Part shown: piece after piece, positions 41,107 to 48,835 of the stretch
Layout: each line of letters starts with the position of its first letter
How positions within the stretch are numbered: the first letter of the stretch is position 1
Origin: an uncultured delta proteobacterium
GTDB lineage: Bacteria; Myxococcota_A; UBA9160; JAFDET01
Assembly: GCA_947259215.1 (NCBI GenBank)
Contig: CAMYLJ010000011.1
Location: 1 to 50,035 of the forward strand
Reading direction: 5' to 3'
Length of the DNA: 50,035 bases
Position numbers and translations under genes: made by a program
Notes under the pieces: generated by a model
What the model was told of the DNA's origin: nothing
Seen by the model: only the letters and a program-made list of their open reading frames with translations
The model's database searches: none

Positions 41107-41898
41107 ATGAAGCGGGTTCGCACGCTGTGCAGTCTGGGAGTCGCTGGACTCCTCGGGCTGGCGATCGCCGGGCTGGCGCCCAGGGCGGCTCTGGCGGATC
41201 TCGTGCTGTTCCGCCTGGAGACGCCGTCGCTGGTGAACCCGGCCCCGAACGGCGGGATCCGGGTCACGGCAGTGCGGTTCTTCAGCGCGGGCGTGCCGGT
41301 GGCTGAGATCAACCGGCGCCTCACCCAGATCGGGGGAGGCAACCGGATCTCTCTTGCCCTCCCCGTCAGCGCGCCGCCGGACGAGGTGGAGGTCGACTAC
41401 GCGGTTCCCGTCGATGGCATTCCTACGACGTATTCGGTGCCGCCCGGAGCGTTCTTCTTCGACACGCGCTACCTGCTGCCCGCGAGTCCCGGGGGCGTAA
41501 TCCTCGGCCCCCAGCCCGGCGACCCGACCACGGACGCCGCCTTCGAAGTCTCGCTGGTGTCCAGCGCGGTGGACCCGACCCAGGACCCGGAGGCCCCTAC
41601 CTGCGACGTCAGCAGCCCCGCACCCGGCGTCATCGAGGCCACCGTTCAGGACGCCGAGAGCGGGCTCGCGAGCATCGAGGAGCGCTCCAGCAACCTCGTG
41701 GTCGTGGTTCCCGACTTCACGCCCGGAACCACGAACCCCGTGGTCGTGACTGGCACCGTGGTCAATCCGACCCGAAGCGCACGGCTGAGCCTCCGCGTGA
41801 CCGACGCCGACGACAACTTCACGTATTGCAAGGAGGTGCTCCGGCGCGAGCGCAAGACGCGCCAGCGCCGGACCATCATCCGTCGGATCGTGCGCTAG
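41107..41898 (+). CDS. Secreted protein of unknown function
   Basis: ATG 41107, with GGGAGGG upstream, encodes 263 aa starting with a signal peptide (to about residue 31, ending ALA-D). The mature part is beta-rich (RFFSAGVPVAEINRRLTQIG), has a region with TQDPEAPTCDVSSPAPGVIE resembling an Ig-like or Big/HYR repeat, and ends in a very basic stretch (RRERKTRQRRTIIRRIVR) like the gene at 38427. The two Cys residues may be a disulfide. The stop codon overlaps the stop of the convergent thrombospondin-domain gene by 4 bp (41895-41898). Confidence 0.65.
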   Translation: MKRVRTLCSLGVAGLLGLAIAGLAPRAALADLVLFRLETPSLVNPAPNGGIRVTAVRFFSAGVPVAEINRRLTQIGGGNRISLALPVSAPPDEVEVDYAVPVDGIPTTYSVPPGAFFFDTRYLLPASPGGVILGPQPGDPTTDAAFEVSLVSSAVDPTQDPEAPTCDVSSPAPGVIEATVQDAESGLASIEERSSNLVVVVPDFTPGTTNPVVVTGTVVNPTRSARLSLRVTDADDNFTYCKEVLRRERKTRQRRTIIRRIVR

Positions 41899-43007
41899 CG
41901 CAGCGCCGATGCCCGCGAGCGGGGCGACTCACCCGCGGCGTTGAACGTCGAGACCTTGAAGCGCGCCGGTGGCCCGGGGCGCTCGAACTCGATCGTCAAG
42001 GTCACGTCGTTGCCGGTGGCTCCTCGCGAGATCGACGCGGTGCTCGGCGAGCCGACCACCCTCCCCGTGTCCAGGTCCACCGGGGCGTATTGGATGACCT
42101 CCCCCCTCCGGGTCCGCTGCGGGGGCCAGAGGAAGATGCGCTGCACGCGGCGCCAGGCGAAGCCACCCTCGTCCAACCGCCAGACATTCACGCCAGCGAC
42201 GGCGCTGGGGACATAGTCCGGGATCCGCAGCGTGAGCATCACGGTTTCCACGGGCGGACCACAAGCCGGCGTCGTCGCGCTCCTCGCGCCGTTCTTCGGC
42301 GAGCGGTTGCCGGCGCCGTCGAAGGCGGCAACCTGGTAGGAATGCGTCGTCGAATCGGGGAGGTTGCCATCCGAGAGCGAGCGCAGCGGGGCCATGACCT
42401 TCGTGTAGAAGTTGCCGTCCCGGTACACGTCGTAGCCCTCGAGGCCGGAGCCGCCGCTGTCCGTTGCGGCGTCCCACGAGACGTCGATCTCCGAGCAGCT
42501 CGCTGCCGTCGCCGTCAGGCCCCTGGGCGTCGAGGGCGGTTGTCTGTCCCCCGCAGAGCAGATCTGCGTGTTGCACGAACGCGTCGTCGGGGGCTTGGAC
42601 GCGGAGCAGAAGCCGGTGCTCACCGAGAGTCCGTCGTTTCGCCTGCACGAAACGCTTCGGGTCTGCGTTCCGCCGCCGCAGGTCTTCGAGCAGGTCCCAT
42701 ACGAGCTCGTTGCCCAGCGATACGAGTAGCTGGGGGTCGAAGGCGGATCCGAAGCGGACGTGCCTTCGTTCCGCAGCCTGTCCGCCTCGGCGCGCGTGGC
42801 GTCGGCCTGGGCCTGGGCCTCGGCCCGCCTGGCCGCGGCGTCGGCCTCGGCCTCGGCACGCAGCGCGTCGGTCCTGGCGTGGGCGTCTGCACGGATCTGA
42901 TCGGCCTTCGCCCGGGCGTCGTCGACGGCGTCTGCCGCCGCCGGGGCGGCGGGGGCCGCCAGAAGAGGGAGAGCGATAGCGAGGCAGGCAGCGCGAGAAA
43001 GAAGCAT
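41895..43007 (-). CDS. Secreted coiled-coil/TSP1/fibronectin III protein, paralog A
   Basis: ATG 43007 begins 370 aa. The signal peptide (to about residue 25) is followed by an Ala/Arg/Glu coiled coil with ADQIRADAHARTDALRAEAE (26-82), then a thrombospondin type 1 domain (93-150: YRWATSSYGTCSKTCGGGTQ, with six Cys including CSKTC, SVSC, FC, SC and IC) and a fibronectin type III domain (157-247: GYDVYRDGNFYTKVMAPLRS, THSYQVAAFDGAGNRSP). The C-terminal 120 residues form a separate beta-rich domain. TSP1 domains are chiefly animal and protist, so a bacterial one is notable. A near-identical relative without the last domain visible lies at 49253. It probably mediates adhesion or binding at the cell surface; the partner is unknown. 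Confidence 0.78.
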   Translation of the reverse strand: MLLSRAACLAIALPLLAAPAAPAAADAVDDARAKADQIRADAHARTDALRAEAEADAAARRAEAQAQADATRAEADRLRNEGTSASDPPSTPSYSYRWATSSYGTCSKTCGGGTQTRSVSCRRNDGLSVSTGFCSASKPPTTRSCNTQICSAGDRQPPSTPRGLTATAASCSEIDVSWDAATDSGGSGLEGYDVYRDGNFYTKVMAPLRSLSDGNLPDSTTHSYQVAAFDGAGNRSPKNGARSATTPACGPPVETVMLTLRIPDYVPSAVAGVNVWRLDEGGFAWRRVQRIFLWPPQRTRRGEVIQYAPVDLDTGRVVGSPSTASISRGATGNDVTLTIEFERPGPPARFKVSTFNAAGESPRSRASALR

Positions 43008-43118: not shown

Positions 43119-43466
43119 CTACTGGCCGACGACCGCGCGACCCTCGACGCGAATACAGCTGCGGTTGTAGAGACCCGTCACGAGCAGGTCGCGGTGGATG
43201 GCCACGTCCGCGAGCGCGGTGGCCCCCGAAGCCCGGGAGAGCGCCTGGGCGATGGCGCGGCGCAGGGTCGGCGGCGCGGTGCGCAGGCCGAAGAACAGAA
43301 TCGTCTGATGGCAGTCGCGCCCGCTGACCTGCTCCTGCACGGTGACGAAGGACCGGGTGTCGATCTCGGTCGAGGCCACCGAGAGGGGGCCGTGGCGGGT
43401 GGTACACCCCCCCAGCGCCACACCGGCCAGGACCAACGCGCCCGCGAGGATGGTCGGGGCCCTCAC
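43119..43466 (-). CDS. Small lipoprotein, tandem copy 2
   Basis: GTG 43466 overlaps the stop of the upstream copy by four bases (GTGA), so the two are probably translated together. The product is 115 aa with a lipobox VALGGC, so it is lipid-modified. It aligns with the upstream gene over its length: V-S-G-R-D-C-H-x4-F-F-G-L, P-P-T-L-R-R-A-I-A-Q-A-L, A-L-A-D-V and L-V-T-G-L-Y-N-R-S-C-I-R-V-E-G. The two internal Cys are conserved in both and may be a disulfide. It follows the Fap-like cluster but belongs to a separate transcription unit. No family name is recognised. Confidence 0.68.
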   Translation of the reverse strand: MRAPTILAGALVLAGVALGGCTTRHGPLSVASTEIDTRSFVTVQEQVSGRDCHQTILFFGLRTAPPTLRRAIAQALSRASGATALADVAIHRDLLVTGLYNRSCIRVEGRAVVGQ

Positions 43467-43822
43467 GGCGTCACCCACACGGACCCGGTCACCTCGAGGC
43501 AGGTGCGGCCGAAGAGGATCGCCGTCCAGCCGCGAGTCTTGACCTGGACCTCGGTCAGGAGGCTTGCGGATGGGACCTCGGCCAGAGCGTTGGCCACAGC
43601 GATCTCGTAGCTCGGCGTGGAGCGCCCGAGGGGGACCAGGAGCAGGGTGTGGTGGATGCAGTCACGGCCGGTGGCCTTCTTGTCCAGGGACGCGGCCTTG
43701 ACTCCCGAGGGCTTCGTGGAGACCAGCTGAAGCCGGCCCGCGGAGACCGAGCAGCCGAGACCCGCAGCGAGGGACAGGCCGACCACCAGGCCGAGCGCTG
43801 CGGCCCCACACTTCGTCAACAT
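43463..43822 (-). CDS. Small lipoprotein, tandem copy 1 (probably leaderless mRNA)
   Basis: ATG 43822 begins 119 aa with a signal peptide ending in the lipobox AGLGC. The mature protein contains ATGRDCIHHTLLLVPLGRST, EIAVANALAEVPSASLLTEV and ILFGRTCLEVTGSVWVTP. It is paralogous to the next gene downstream, with the GRDC Cys and the R-x-C near the end conserved. No ribosome site precedes the ATG. A TATATT box six bases upstream would put the transcription start at or near the A of the ATG. Confidence 0.68.
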   Translation of the reverse strand: MLTKCGAAALGLVVGLSLAAGLGCSVSAGRLQLVSTKPSGVKAASLDKKATGRDCIHHTLLLVPLGRSTPSYEIAVANALAEVPSASLLTEVQVKTRGWTAILFGRTCLEVTGSVWVTP

Positions 43823-43888: not shown

Positions 43889-45211
43889 TCAGTCTCGCTC
43901 GACGAGGGCGACGCGCGTGGACTTGTTCCCCGACCGGGCGAAGAGCGGCCAGGACGGGAGCTTCAGGCTGGGCAGGCGGTAGGGCAGCCGGAAGGGCAGC
44001 CGGACCTCGATGCTGAGATCCGGGGCGTCATCGGTGACGCCGACACCCACGTTGAAGCTGAGGCTCGTGAGGCGATTCAGGCGGTAGCTCGTTCCGACGA
44101 ACAGGGTCGCGACGTTGAGGTCGGTCCGCTCGACCCTCACGCCGTCCAACGAGGATCGGTTCGTGAACCGCTGCTGCCAGGAGAAGCTGAGGGCGAGGCG
44201 CTCGTTCAGCGAGAAGGCGAGGCCGAGGCTGTACTCGACGGCGTTGCCGGGATCGATATTGCCGAAGATGCCCTTGTCGTCCTCGAGGTTCCACCAGTAG
44301 TTGGCCGATGCGAAGACCACCGCCGGGTCGAGGGCCCGCACCATGGTGCCGCCGACCGACAAGCCCCAGAATCCCGTACCGATGGCCGTGTTGTTGCCCG
44401 TGTCGCCGATGAAGAAGTCCTCCCCCGTCGGCGCCACCCCGCGGAAGTTCAACACCAGATCCGGCCAGTACTGCGCTTCCTCGAGCACCTGGGCGAAGAG
44501 CCCGAATTGGAGGTCGCCGAGTCCGCTGCCGCTGTCCTTGTCGACCATCTGGTTGTCGCCCGTGCCGAGGACGAACTTGTCATCCCGCCACCGGTAGGGG
44601 ATGTTCACCTGGGCCTCGAGCCAGTCGGTGAGGCCGTAGCGGAAGTCGACGAAAGCCGACAGGATGTCGCGGTCGACCTCCGTGGTGTCGATGCGGCCGA
44701 CGATGATGGCCGGCAGGAGCTGGAAGCCGCTGATGTCCACGCGGCTGCGCTGGAAGTGGTTGTACTGGAAGCCCGGCTCGATGACGAGCTGCCCCGCCGG
44801 CAGCAGCACGCCGCCCCGCCGCTCCAGGATCTGGCGCTCCGCCTGGTAGCGCCGCAGCCGCTCCTTCACCGTGCCGACCTTCTGGGGCTCCTTGTCCAGG
44901 TCGGTGGGGACGGCGGACGGTCGCTCCTTGCGGAGGGCGGCGACGGCCTCGCGGAGCTCCTCCATCTCCGCATCCCGGGCCTGCCGGCCCTGCTCGAGCT
45001 CGCCCACGGTCGTGCGCAGGCTCTGGACCTGGCCCTCGAGCTCGGCGCGGGCCGCGCGCTCGGCCTCGAGCTGCGTTTCGAGCGACGACCCCGCAGTGTC
45101 CGGCTCAACCGCGCGCAGAGGCGTGGGGGCGACCAGGAGCGCCAAGGTCGCGAAGCCGAGCGCTCCGGCGCGTGAGCGCCTCACTCTAGAGGCGGGTGTT
45201 TCAAACCCCAT
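43889..45211 (-). CDS. fapF: FapF-like outer-membrane protein: coiled coil plus beta-barrel
   Basis: ATG 45211 is preferred to the upstream start at 45283 because it places a hydrophobic signal (about residues 15-34) correctly. The 440 aa protein has an N-terminal heptad-rich coiled coil (about 43-100: LETQLEAERAARAELEGQVQ, then GRQARDAEMEELREAVAALR) and a beta-barrel from about residue 135 in the Phenol_MetA_deg/transporter style (LPAGQLVIEPGFQYNHFQRS, RYGLTDWLEAQVNIPYRWRD, GDLQFGLFAQVLEEAQYWPD, ending in alternating hydrophobic strands). This is the FapF architecture: the Pseudomonas amyloid secretion pore has a coiled-coil periplasmic domain and a trimeric barrel. It is the last gene of the Fap-like unit and follows the fapE-like gene. 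Confidence 0.72.
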   Translation of the reverse strand: MGFETPASRVRRSRAGALGFATLALLVAPTPLRAVEPDTAGSSLETQLEAERAARAELEGQVQSLRTTVGELEQGRQARDAEMEELREAVAALRKERPSAVPTDLDKEPQKVGTVKERLRRYQAERQILERRGGVLLPAGQLVIEPGFQYNHFQRSRVDISGFQLLPAIIVGRIDTTEVDRDILSAFVDFRYGLTDWLEAQVNIPYRWRDDKFVLGTGDNQMVDKDSGSGLGDLQFGLFAQVLEEAQYWPDLVLNFRGVAPTGEDFFIGDTGNNTAIGTGFWGLSVGGTMVRALDPAVVFASANYWWNLEDDKGIFGNIDPGNAVEYSLGLAFSLNERLALSFSWQQRFTNRSSLDGVRVERTDLNVATLFVGTSYRLNRLTSLSFNVGVGVTDDAPDLSIEVRLPFRLPYRLPSLKLPSWPLFARSGNKSTRVALVERD

Positions 45212-45300
45212 GACGCCCCCCCGACGGCAGTCGCTACCAGAACCCGCGGCCTGCTTTAGCAGAAGAGGGGCCCAATTGTCCATCTTCCCGCCGGAGCGGC

Positions 45301-45900
45301 TCAGAAGCCGAACAAGGGTGCGATCGCGCTCGCCGCCGCGGGGCCGCCGCCCGGCGGCGCGTTGATCACCGTCAGCAAGATCGTCATCCCGTTGGCGACC
45401 ACGTTCTGGTTGCCGGGGACCTGGTTCACCTGAGCGATGATGTTGCCGCCCGAGAAGGCGCTGTTGGCGATAGTGGCCGAGACGTTGATCTGCTCGCCGC
45501 CCGGGCCCGAGACGACGGCCGTACCCGCCGGGCCCACCGAGCCGGTCACGGTGCCGCCCGTACCCGGGCCCGTCAGGCTGAAGCCCCCGTTCTGATTGCC
45601 CAGCCCGGCGTTCACGTTCAGGTTGGCCTGGGTGGCGCCGTCGAGGCCCACGAAGCCCTCGAAGTGCACCGAGAAGAAGAAGCCCAGGAAGCGACCCCGC
45701 AGGTCATCGAGCTCCGTGTCGTCGAGCGCGGCCACCGCGTCCCGAGGGATCCCGGTGTACTCCTCGAAGTCCTGCCCCAGCAAATCGAAGTCCCGCCCCA
45801 GCGGATCGTCGCCGAGAGCGGGGGTCGGGCTGAGGAGCATGAGCGCCCCCAGCAGGGGCCCCGCCCCTCTCCGAATCAACCGCTCGTTGCCAGCCTGCAT
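45301..45900 (-). CDS. FapE-like small secreted protein
   Basis: ATG 45900, with AAGGAGAG six bases upstream, encodes 199 aa with a signal peptide (to about residue 30). An acidic N-terminal segment (GRDFDLLGQDFEEYTGIPRD) leads to a Gly/Asn-rich second half with NLNVNAGLGNQNGGFSL, TGPGTGGTVTGSVGPAGTAV and NVVANGMTILLTVINAPPGG. It contains an N-Q-V-P-G-N-Q-N stretch reminiscent of the amyloid repeats and ends with PLFGF. Position directly between the C39 peptidase and the FapF-like pore equals that of fapE in Pseudomonas. Sequence similarity to FapE itself is not something I can confirm, so the assignment is mainly positional. Confidence 0.55.
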   Translation of the reverse strand: MQAGNERLIRRGAGPLLGALMLLSPTPALGDDPLGRDFDLLGQDFEEYTGIPRDAVAALDDTELDDLRGRFLGFFFSVHFEGFVGLDGATQANLNVNAGLGNQNGGFSLTGPGTGGTVTGSVGPAGTAVVSGPGGEQINVSATIANSAFSGGNIIAQVNQVPGNQNVVANGMTILLTVINAPPGGGPAAASAIAPLFGF

Positions 45901-45919
45901 GGCTCTCTCCTTGCCCATC

Positions 45920-46654
45920 TCAGCGGACCCGGAACTCGGCCGGGCTGAAGACCATATTTCGCAGCCCCTGGAATTCCAGGCGGCGCACTTCGTCTCGCGG
46001 CGAATCCATCTTCGCCTCCAGCAGCTCCAGGGACGAGGGCCCTGCGCTGGGATCCCGCTTGCCCGCCACGAAGAAGATCGCACCGGACCACTCCCCCAGG
46101 AACTCGCTACGGCGCATGGCGCGGTTCCCGAGGGCCGGATCGGCGAGGAAGACCTCTCCATCGCGCGAGCCCTTGAGCACCACGAAGTGGCTGTAGCCGC
46201 TCGTGTTGATGAGGGTGATGGCCGGGATGGCCAGCCGGTCCAGCACGTCCGCGCGGATCGCGAAGCCCTTCGTCTGGTAGCCGAGGCTCTCCGCGTAGCG
46301 CTTCATGTCCAGGAGGGAGAAGCCCTCCCGGCGGATCTTTTCCTGATCGCCGCCCTCCAGCATGGCCAGCGTGACCGACTGCTCATCGACGGGCTCGGCG
46401 TAGTAGTGGTGGAGGAGCGTGGCCAGCGCGGCGGCGCCGCAGCTGTAGTCGAGGTCCTGGGGAACCATGCCCCGGAAGCGCTGGTCGCGGAAGCTCTCGA
46501 CGGACTTGCTGATCCAGCCGCCGCCGGCGCCGATGCCGCCGAGGTGGAAGTTCGTCACCTCGTCGGGGGGGATGGCCATGCATCCCAGCGATCCCATCGC
46601 GGCCGCCAGGAGCGCGCTTCCGATCCAGACCGAGACGGTTGTGCGAGCGACCAT
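45920..46654 (-). CDS. fapD: FapD-like C39-family cysteine peptidase lipoprotein
   Basis: ATG 46654 begins a 244 aa protein with a signal peptide that ends in a plausible lipobox (SLGC, Cys25). The C39 double-glycine-peptidase fold is evident: Gln66 and Cys72 in QDLDYSCGAAALATLLHHYY, His156 in SGYSHFVVLKG and Asp172 in LADPALGNR. Unlike ABC-linked C39 peptidases, it stands alone, as does Pseudomonas FapD. It sits 114 bp after the amyloid gene and 20 bp before the FapE-like gene, in the same order as fapC-fapD-fapE. It is probably required for secretion or processing of the amyloid subunit. Confidence 0.8.
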   Translation of the reverse strand: MVARTTVSVWIGSALLAAAMGSLGCMAIPPDEVTNFHLGGIGAGGGWISKSVESFRDQRFRGMVPQDLDYSCGAAALATLLHHYYAEPVDEQSVTLAMLEGGDQEKIRREGFSLLDMKRYAESLGYQTKGFAIRADVLDRLAIPAITLINTSGYSHFVVLKGSRDGEVFLADPALGNRAMRRSEFLGEWSGAIFFVAGKRDPSAGPSSLELLEAKMDSPRDEVRRLEFQGLRNMVFSPAEFRVR

Positions 46655-46692
46655 CGGGGGGCCTCGTCGTCGCGCTTGCGTTGCCAGGCGTT

Positions 46693-46751
46693 GGCCGGGG
46701 GCGCGCTGCTTGCGCGCCCCCGGCCCGGATCCAAACCAGGCTTCAGCCTGG
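46693..46751 (-). promoter_or_regulatory. Two strong hairpins between the amyloid gene and fapD
   Basis: After the amyloid stop codon the transcript meets CCAGGCT/AGCCTGG (46751-46736, two-base loop) and then a 14-bp perfect stem GGCCGGGGGCGCGC with its complement (46725-46693, five-base loop). Neither has a T-run, so they are not classical rho-independent terminators. They could stabilise the upstream amyloid mRNA or partly stop transcription, giving more subunit than machinery, as seen for other major fibre subunits. Confidence 0.55.
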
Positions 46752-46767
46752 CCCCGTACTGCGGCCC

Positions 46768-47679
46768 CTAGAACGGGCTCGCGGGCGCGGGCAGTGCGCC
46801 AATGCTGGCGCCGATGTCGATCTTGTTCGCCTGGTTGTTGATCGCACCAGCGGACTGGTTGACCATCACGATGCCGTCGAACCCGTTGAACGAGTTCGTG
46901 ATCGTGTCCGTCCGAACCGTGTCGATCACGTCGACCAGGTTCCACGTGTTGAACTGACCGAGGTCGATCTCACCCAGCGCGAACGTGGCGAAGTCGGCGA
47001 GGGCGATCGCGGTCGAGTTCTTCTGGTTGTTCAGGCTACCGGCCGACTGGTTGATCCCGACGATGCCACTGCCATCGTTGAACGAGTCCGTGACGTCATC
47101 CGACGTCACGTTCCCGAACACCGTGATGTACTGGTTCACGTAGTCCGGGAACAAGTCCCCGTCGCGGTCCGGCGGCGCCGTGTCGTTCAGGGTGACGGTC
47201 GGCGGGTCGGTGCCCGTGTCGACCGTCGCGGTCGGAGGATTCCAGCCGTTGATCTGCTCCACCGCGTCCTGGGCGTGCACGAAGGCGCCGTCGGCCGGCG
47301 ACTCCACGATCGTCACCGAGACTTCGTTGGCCTGGTTGTTGCTGTAACCCGGTGCCTGGTTGATCAGGAAGATGCCGTTTCCGTTGTCACCGGTGGCGCC
47401 GTCGATCGACGCGGTCGAGAGACCGTTCTCGTCCTCGACGAAGTTCCACTGGTTCCGCTGGTTGTTGACGACTTCCTGCTCGGCCGCCGCATCGACGTCG
47501 ATCTGCTCATCGATGGTCAGATTGATGGTCTTGGTGATGTCGATGTCTTCGGTGACCGTCTTCGTCTTGAACTTTGCGAACTGTGCGTACACGTTCGCAT
47601 CCGCCTTCGCCTGCGTCGCGCCGAGGGTAAACGCCCCAGCAACGGCGACGGCGAGGAGGATCTGGAATGCAGCTTTCAT
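46768..47679 (-). CDS. fapC: Fap-type functional amyloid subunit (FapC/FapB-like)
   Basis: ATG 47679, with AAAGGAAC upstream, encodes 303 aa with a signal peptide (1-26). The mature protein is Asn/Gln/Asp/Thr-rich, without Cys, and has three repeats with consensus G-I-x3-N-Q-x-A/P-G-x2-N-N-Q-x-N: GIFLINQAPGYSNNQAN (102-118), GIVGINQSAGSLNNQKN (205-221) and GIVMVNQSAGAINNQAN (269-285). This is the repeat type of Pseudomonas FapB and FapC. Linkers between repeats are about 86 and 47 residues, and a Ca-binding-like DRDGDLFPDYVN sits in the first linker. Unlike Pseudomonas subunits it appears as a single gene with no second amyloid paralog and lacks the C-terminal Cys pair. It probably forms extracellular amyloid fibres. 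Confidence 0.8.
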   Translation of the reverse strand: MKAAFQILLAVAVAGAFTLGATQAKADANVYAQFAKFKTKTVTEDIDITKTINLTIDEQIDVDAAAEQEVVNNQRNQWNFVEDENGLSTASIDGATGDNGNGIFLINQAPGYSNNQANEVSVTIVESPADGAFVHAQDAVEQINGWNPPTATVDTGTDPPTVTLNDTAPPDRDGDLFPDYVNQYITVFGNVTSDDVTDSFNDGSGIVGINQSAGSLNNQKNSTAIALADFATFALGEIDLGQFNTWNLVDVIDTVRTDTITNSFNGFDGIVMVNQSAGAINNQANKIDIGASIGALPAPASPF

Positions 47680-47801: not shown

Positions 47802-47817
47802 AGCAAGGGCCGTGCCG
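47802..47817 (-). promoter_or_regulatory. Sigma-54-type -24/-12 promoter for the Fap-like operon
   Basis: Read on the minus strand, CGGCACGGCCCTTGCT has GG and GC separated by exactly 10 bases and matches the consensus TGGCACGRNNNTTGCW except at the first T. The predicted transcription start is about 12 bases downstream, which leaves a leader of about 110 nt before the ATG at 47679. Sigma-54 promoters need an enhancer-binding activator; candidate upstream sites are described next. Confidence 0.6.
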
Positions 47818-48154: not shown

Positions 48155-48835
48155 ATGCGAAGCACCTGCGCCCCGATCCTGATGCTGTTGGTCGCCTGCA
48201 GCGGCGCGGCTGGCCCGGGCCCCGGCCAGGAGGAGCACTACTTCCCGCCCGCCGTGCGCATGACCATGCTGGTGTTCCGCGACGTCACCCCCGGCGTGGA
48301 CCCGGCCTCCTTCGAGGCCCAGCCCCGCACCCTGTACCGGCTGGGGGAACGCTTCGGACGCATGGAGTATCCGGTGAACGGCGAGCAGGGAGTGCACCTG
48401 CTCGCGATCGTGAACGAGCCCCACATCTTCGCGATCAACCAGCTCGACGGCACGGGCCGCCACACGATCGACCCGGGGCCGACCTACGTCTTCCGCGCCC
48501 CGATGTTCAAGAAGGAGGACGTCCCCCCGCCGCTCGGAGAGCTCGAGTACGGCCGGGAGATCGAGTTCCTGAAGGCTCACCAGGCGACCGCGAGCCAGGT
48601 CGTCGGCGAGGACGGCCGGCCCCGCAAGCAGCACGAGGCCACGTTCGGCGAGGTCAGGGTGGTCGCGATCGGCCCCGCGGGTAGCACCGCTGTCGAGACC
48701 CTACAGGTCTACCAGGCCGATGAGCTCGTCCACTCCGTCCAATACGACGCCTACCGCACCGACCTACCCCCCCGCGCCGAGCTGTTCAGACCCCCGGAAG
48801 GTGTCCGGATCTTCCAACAGCAGAAGGGCGAGTAA
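48155..48835 (+). CDS. Lipoprotein of unknown function
   Basis: ATG 48155 (GGGAGG upstream) encodes 226 aa with a short signal peptide and lipobox LLVACS (Cys about 15), hence lipid-anchored. The mature part is mostly soluble, with conserved-looking stretches FRDVTPGVDPASFEAQPRTL, YRLGERFGRMEYPVNGEQGV and HLLAIVNEPHIFAINQLDGT. No family is recognised. It is divergent from the amyloid gene and shares its regulatory region, so it may be coregulated. Confidence 0.65.
   Translation: MRSTCAPILMLLVACSGAAGPGPGQEEHYFPPAVRMTMLVFRDVTPGVDPASFEAQPRTLYRLGERFGRMEYPVNGEQGVHLLAIVNEPHIFAINQLDGTGRHTIDPGPTYVFRAPMFKKEDVPPPLGELEYGREIEFLKAHQATASQVVGEDGRPRKQHEATFGEVRVVAIGPAGSTAVETLQVYQADELVHSVQYDAYRTDLPPRAELFRPPEGVRIFQQQKGE

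Follow-up and report, generated by a model that had tools for sequence, protein, structure and literature searches.

A probable deep-branching, reduced four-gene Fap operon with a single FapB/C-type subunit in an uncultured delta proteobacterium

We analyzed a stretch of 50,035 nucleotides from an uncultured delta proteobacterium (called the window below), and found at positions 43889-47679 a locus that is very likely a deep-branching, reduced four-gene Fap operon, which would secrete one FapB/C-type protein to form surface amyloid. The genes for the subunit, FapD, the FapE-like protein and FapF lie head to tail on the minus strand (Table 1), and the claim of a preliminary description that four consecutive minus-strand genes follow the fap order was borne out in both positions and strands. 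The gap between fapD and the fapE-like gene is nearly zero and the other two intergenic stretches measure about 113 and 90 bases, a spacing as in one operon. All four reading frames are intact, and all four products carry Sec-like signals at the N-terminus, as judged by eye.

Table 1. Position of the operon genes and associated elements in the window.
Feature	Length	Position	Strand	Basis or remark
FapF, periplasmic coiled coil and outer-membrane beta-barrel secretion channel	440 aa	43889..45211	-	NCBIfam, PDB match
FapE-like secreted protein	205 aa	45301..45918	-	place between fapD and fapF, two short motifs
Leader-like motif LDDTELDDLRGRF	FapE-like residues 65-77	45688..45726	-	motif scan; candidate FapD recognition/cleavage site
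FapD, exported C39 cysteine peptidase, probably lipid-anchored	244 aa	45920..46654	-	NCBIfam, Pfam, catalytic residues
Sole FapB/C-type amyloid subunit	303 aa	46768..47679	-	NCBIfam, repeats, alignment, genome-wide search
Predicted sigma54 (-24/-12) promoter CGGCACGGCCCTTGCT		47802..47817	-	some 140 bp upstream of the subunit gene
Divergent lipoprotein-like gene		48155..48835	+	lipobox-like LLVAC; candidate accessory gene of this Fap lineage

The NCBIfam search, a profile test of the kind that the preliminary description had named as support, gave significant matches to FapB/C, FapD and FapF in the fap order, although all of them fell under the curated cut-offs for Pseudomonas-type equivalogs. 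The subunit matched FapC (6.5e-21) and FapB (2.2e-15). The second protein, described earlier as a stand-alone C39 peptidase with Gln/Cys/His/Asp catalytic residues, matched FapD (5.4e-49) and Pfam Peptidase_C39 (1.5e-23), and Gln66, Cys72, His156 and Asp172 were all present. It also matched C39 domain structures, the top rows of that structure search being chance matches to repeat proteins. The fourth protein, taken before as a coiled coil plus barrel of the FapF/Phenol_MetA_deg type, proved to be just that, with matches to FapF (1.2e-40), to Phenol_MetA_deg (5.9e-10) and to the solved Pseudomonas FapF structure (PDB 5o67; 1.2e-30 over residues 139-407), and with a PTG motif. The Fap reading therefore stood for the homology of subunit, FapD and FapF and for their order, but the label "FapC" was too specific and FapE was assigned by synteny and motifs.

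Cys25, just after the FapD signal, was invariant in all three relatives. This conserved cysteine at the signal end makes FapD of the window lineage a probable lipoprotein, in contrast to what has been described for Pseudomonas FapD.

The secreted protein had been described as carrying three repeats of the G-I-x3-N-Q type. The pattern G[IV]x3NQx[AP]Gx2NNQxN was found exactly three times in the subunit, at residues 102, 205 and 269, and in none of 20,000 shuffles of the protein. Besides these imperfect repeats the subunit has a signal peptide and no cysteine, and each of its repeats could be aligned with those of Lysobacteraceae FapB and FapC. Its naming as FapC was justified only in part: both profiles matched, but the subunit has FapB-type repeat residues and lacks the C-terminal CxxC that was present in seven of the nine FapC examined, so it cannot be called FapC. 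All FapC repeats extracted from canonical operons have N[VI] and most FapB repeats have [NS]Q, while NQ was found in 3/3 repeats of both the window subunit and its ortholog in G009, a relative from another family. Likewise, where FapC has GN[IV], all three window repeats show G[IV] with no N. A repeat HMM gave FapB a slight edge for the window subunit (29 vs 23 bits) but scored FapC higher for the ortholog in G009; as this was not decisive, we named the subunit FapB/C-type. AlphaFold2 run on the subunit sequence by itself gave an uninformative model (pLDDT about 31). In G002, a relative from the same family, the subunit ortholog (L014:7870-8754, minus strand) has N-rich IQNNGxNNNN repeats and gave no match to the FapC model. 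Repeats thus change fast within one family.

The preliminary description noted that FapA and another amyloid paralog are missing from the neighborhood, and this was true of the whole genome (95.7% complete). The partial 16S of this genome was at most 81% identical to the plasmid-borne 16S records listed, one further plasmid record in the 95-99% band lying outside that listing, and 76-80% identical to the 16S of named proteobacteria. No FapA was found in it, the best match elsewhere having an E-value of only 0.4, and the whole-genome search returned no second FapB/C paralog and no other FapF. The same four genes were kept in G002 and G009. Of 379 genomes sampled from the phylum, three had the subunit family, and these belong to a single order; the model used was built from the same three and could miss distant forms. 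For FapD-type loci in genome contigs, an alignment-based scan was effective, whereas a single-protein FapD query gave nothing.

To place the locus, we used quick maximum-likelihood trees of FapD and FapF, which are unrooted and have many weak inner branches. The window and the two relatives were grouped with SH-aLRT of 68% in the FapD tree and 97% in the FapF tree, and canonical Fap (98% and 100%, respectively) stood apart from this clade. The clade was also separate from a large set of other FapD/FapF loci, including the RGGF group described below, in both trees. A 95% branch of the FapF tree placed the window clade, canonical Fap and two long-branched relatives from the order on one side, away from other FapD/FapF systems. 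The window clade stands beside canonical Fap, not inside it, and the operon is, as proposed earlier, a reduced or divergent version.

Occurrence of Fap outside Pseudomonas, pointed out in the preliminary description, is real for this operon but not new, since surveys have already found Fap in several phyla, often with loss of fapA (PMC3792158, PMC6173800, PMC12822426). A survey of GTDB v226 found 1602 Fap clusters, of which more than 90% were ABCDEF or BCDEF, and the two paralogous subunits FapB and FapC occurred together in more than 90% of clusters (PMC12822426). Single-subunit forms may be among the remaining less than 10%. The window operon has in common with Pseudomonas fapABCDEF or fapBCDEF the subunit repeats, FapD, FapF, the C-D-E-F order, a sigma54 promoter and, in FapE, a G[K/R][F/Y]-type leader-like motif. 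It differs by its FapB-type repeat residues, its putative FapD lipoprotein, an extra divergent gene and its own clade in the trees, as well as by lacking FapA, a second subunit and CxxC. An operon with one subunit puts to the test whether Fap requires any separate nucleator.

The predicted sigma54 site upstream of the subunit gene had 11/12 consensus positions, the highest score of any site across the 50 kb. Sites were also present upstream in G009 (11/12) and G002 (10/12), while a site of 10/12 or better occurred in 2.6% of random 450-bp stretches. Each of the canonical fap operons examined had a 10-11/12 site in the scanned 1.0-1.6 kb upstream, and rpoN was present in all three genomes, those of the window, G002 and G009. 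Conservation of the site in both relatives matches the published RpoN control of Pseudomonas fap, for which an RpoN-dependent promoter was shown by 5'-RACE in P. fluorescens (PMC9207406).

The third protein, earlier described as a small secreted protein ending in PLFGF, has the C-terminus APLFGF. Its identification as FapE is tentative: the position is right and two short motifs are shared, but the curated FapE model did not match the window protein (P0003) and no whole-length homology was found. Because the curated model misses this protein, it was assigned to FapE by synteny and the two motifs. The sequence LDDTELDDLRGRF resembles LKDQELAQLRGKY of Pseudomonas-type FapE. A degenerate repeat of the protein aligned to FapE (hhalign probability 87), and this repeat also matched the FapB model weakly (E 0.1). 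The FapE model weakly matched the G002 ortholog at the motif (0.024) and two RGGF proteins within profile positions 8-52, a range that includes the motif (E 0.004 and 0.011).

Double-glycine leaders are the usual cleavage sites of C39 peptidases. The leader-like motif belongs to a class [D/E]xxLxxxRG[G/K/R][F/Y]. Exported proteins with a [D/E]xxLxxxRGG[F/Y]-like motif, typically located some 25-45 residues past the start of the hydrophobic stretch of the signal, were found beside 54 of 80 FapD-type peptidases and in 14 of 1145 control ORFs, and a stricter pattern gave 61/88 and, for distant control ORFs, 7/2121; the counts beside peptidases are not independent because the loci are related. The window protein has the FapE-type G[K/R][F/Y], whereas systems that lack FapB/C repeats had GGF. 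In the four Lysobacteraceae loci where FapB and FapC repeats are clear, the motif was likewise G[K/R][F/Y], not RGGF. One genome of the Aestuariicella order sample contained two tandem fap clusters (L113:3970-12703, minus strand), together with additional small exported proteins that have RGRF or VGRY motifs.

Comparison with the relatives points to the motif as the spot where FapD may cut. Earlier papers give the FapD substrate as undetermined (PMC5557850, PMC6173800) and treat the processing of FapE as a supposition (PMC12822426). In mass spectrometry, the first ~70 residues of FapE yielded no peptides (PMC5557850); the motif of Pseudomonas-type FapE is nearer the start than residue 70, thus a cut exactly there would not explain all missing peptides. 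We tentatively propose, at slightly less than an even chance, that FapD-type peptidases of Fap and of the larger FapD/FapF family recognize a bacteriocin-like leader behind a Sec signal, that FapE is the FapD substrate and is cut at the motif, and that the window lineage uses one homomeric subunit with its own lipoprotein helper. We found no description of the FapE motif in the literature searched, which covered few subscription journals. The conserved motif offers one target for mutation at the level of residues, whether in a laboratory Pseudomonas or with the E. coli secretion assay that has been published.

We infer that the operon product forms amyloid fibers, by steps whose order is carried over from Pseudomonas. 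RpoN would switch on the operon, and the subunit would stay unfolded in the periplasm, where the C39 peptidase FapD would have to cut FapE to license export, most likely adjoining the LDDTELDDLRG-RF motif. Export would run through FapF, whose barrel sits in the outer membrane and whose coiled coil is periplasmic, and the subunit would assemble into amyloid on the cell surface, with FapE ending up with the fiber. One subunit would both nucleate and build the fiber.

The locus could instead belong to a wider FapD/FapF family, of the RGGF type or like Acinetobacter Fil, that exports non-amyloid surface proteins, and the repeat protein would then be a cargo merely resembling FapC. Among the nearest relatives found, FapD/FapF pairs without FapB/C repeats outnumbered Fap by far, and four loci from the same order are such pairs. 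Like the window operon, the RGGF loci, found in many Pseudomonadota and in Geotalea, combine a C39 peptidase with a nearby FapF-type barrel and with a Sec-exported protein that bears a double-glycine-like motif. They differ, however, in having RGGF, and no FapB/C repeat protein was found in them, except in the four canonical-Fap Lysobacteraceae loci and, partially, in L079, where one ORF has two FapB/C repeats. The FilB and FilC models of Acinetobacter fil, a C39 peptidase and a FapF-like protein of what NCBIfam describes as a putative pilus system, also matched the window proteins, but the Fap models outscored them (166 vs 127 bits for FapD and 140 vs 61 bits for FapF). With the three aligned subunit repeats, the FapE-type motif and the separation of the RGGF group in both trees, we consider this explanation improbable. 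As for the missing FapA and second subunit, they could also mean a decaying, non-functional operon left after loss of both genes. The four frames are intact with catalytic residues kept, a different family has kept the same four-gene form and its sigma54 site, and loss of fapA is common, FapA being reported as not vital to fiber formation (PMC6173800); decay is thus very improbable, and a reduced Fap operon is the reading we prefer.

The four loci of the same order (L015, L016, L017 and L018) had other small exported proteins with RGG, AGA or GKG leader-like motifs.

The divergent gene was present in exactly three of the 61 genomes of the order, the same three as the subunit, and adjacent to the operon every time, suggesting that it is a candidate accessory part of this Fap lineage; owing to wider synteny with G009, the linkage could partly be inherited neighborhood. 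Its product had no match in Pfam or NCBIfam, and its AlphaFold2 model without alignment was uninformative (pLDDT 32.2). A LolA-like C-terminus of its family was suspected by eye, but Pfam returned nothing.

Downstream of fapF, two small lipoprotein-like genes (43119-43478 and 43463-43822, both minus strand), one of them weakly TRL-like (E 0.09), were not found beside the operon in the two relatives. Two secreted paralogs bracket the operon, at 41895-43007 on the minus strand and from 49253 on the plus strand, running past the window end. Both combine an ADAMTS-type thrombospondin type-1 domain with a helix and an fn3-like domain, and such thrombospondin domains occurred only in these two proteins in the genome plus 20 relatives searched.
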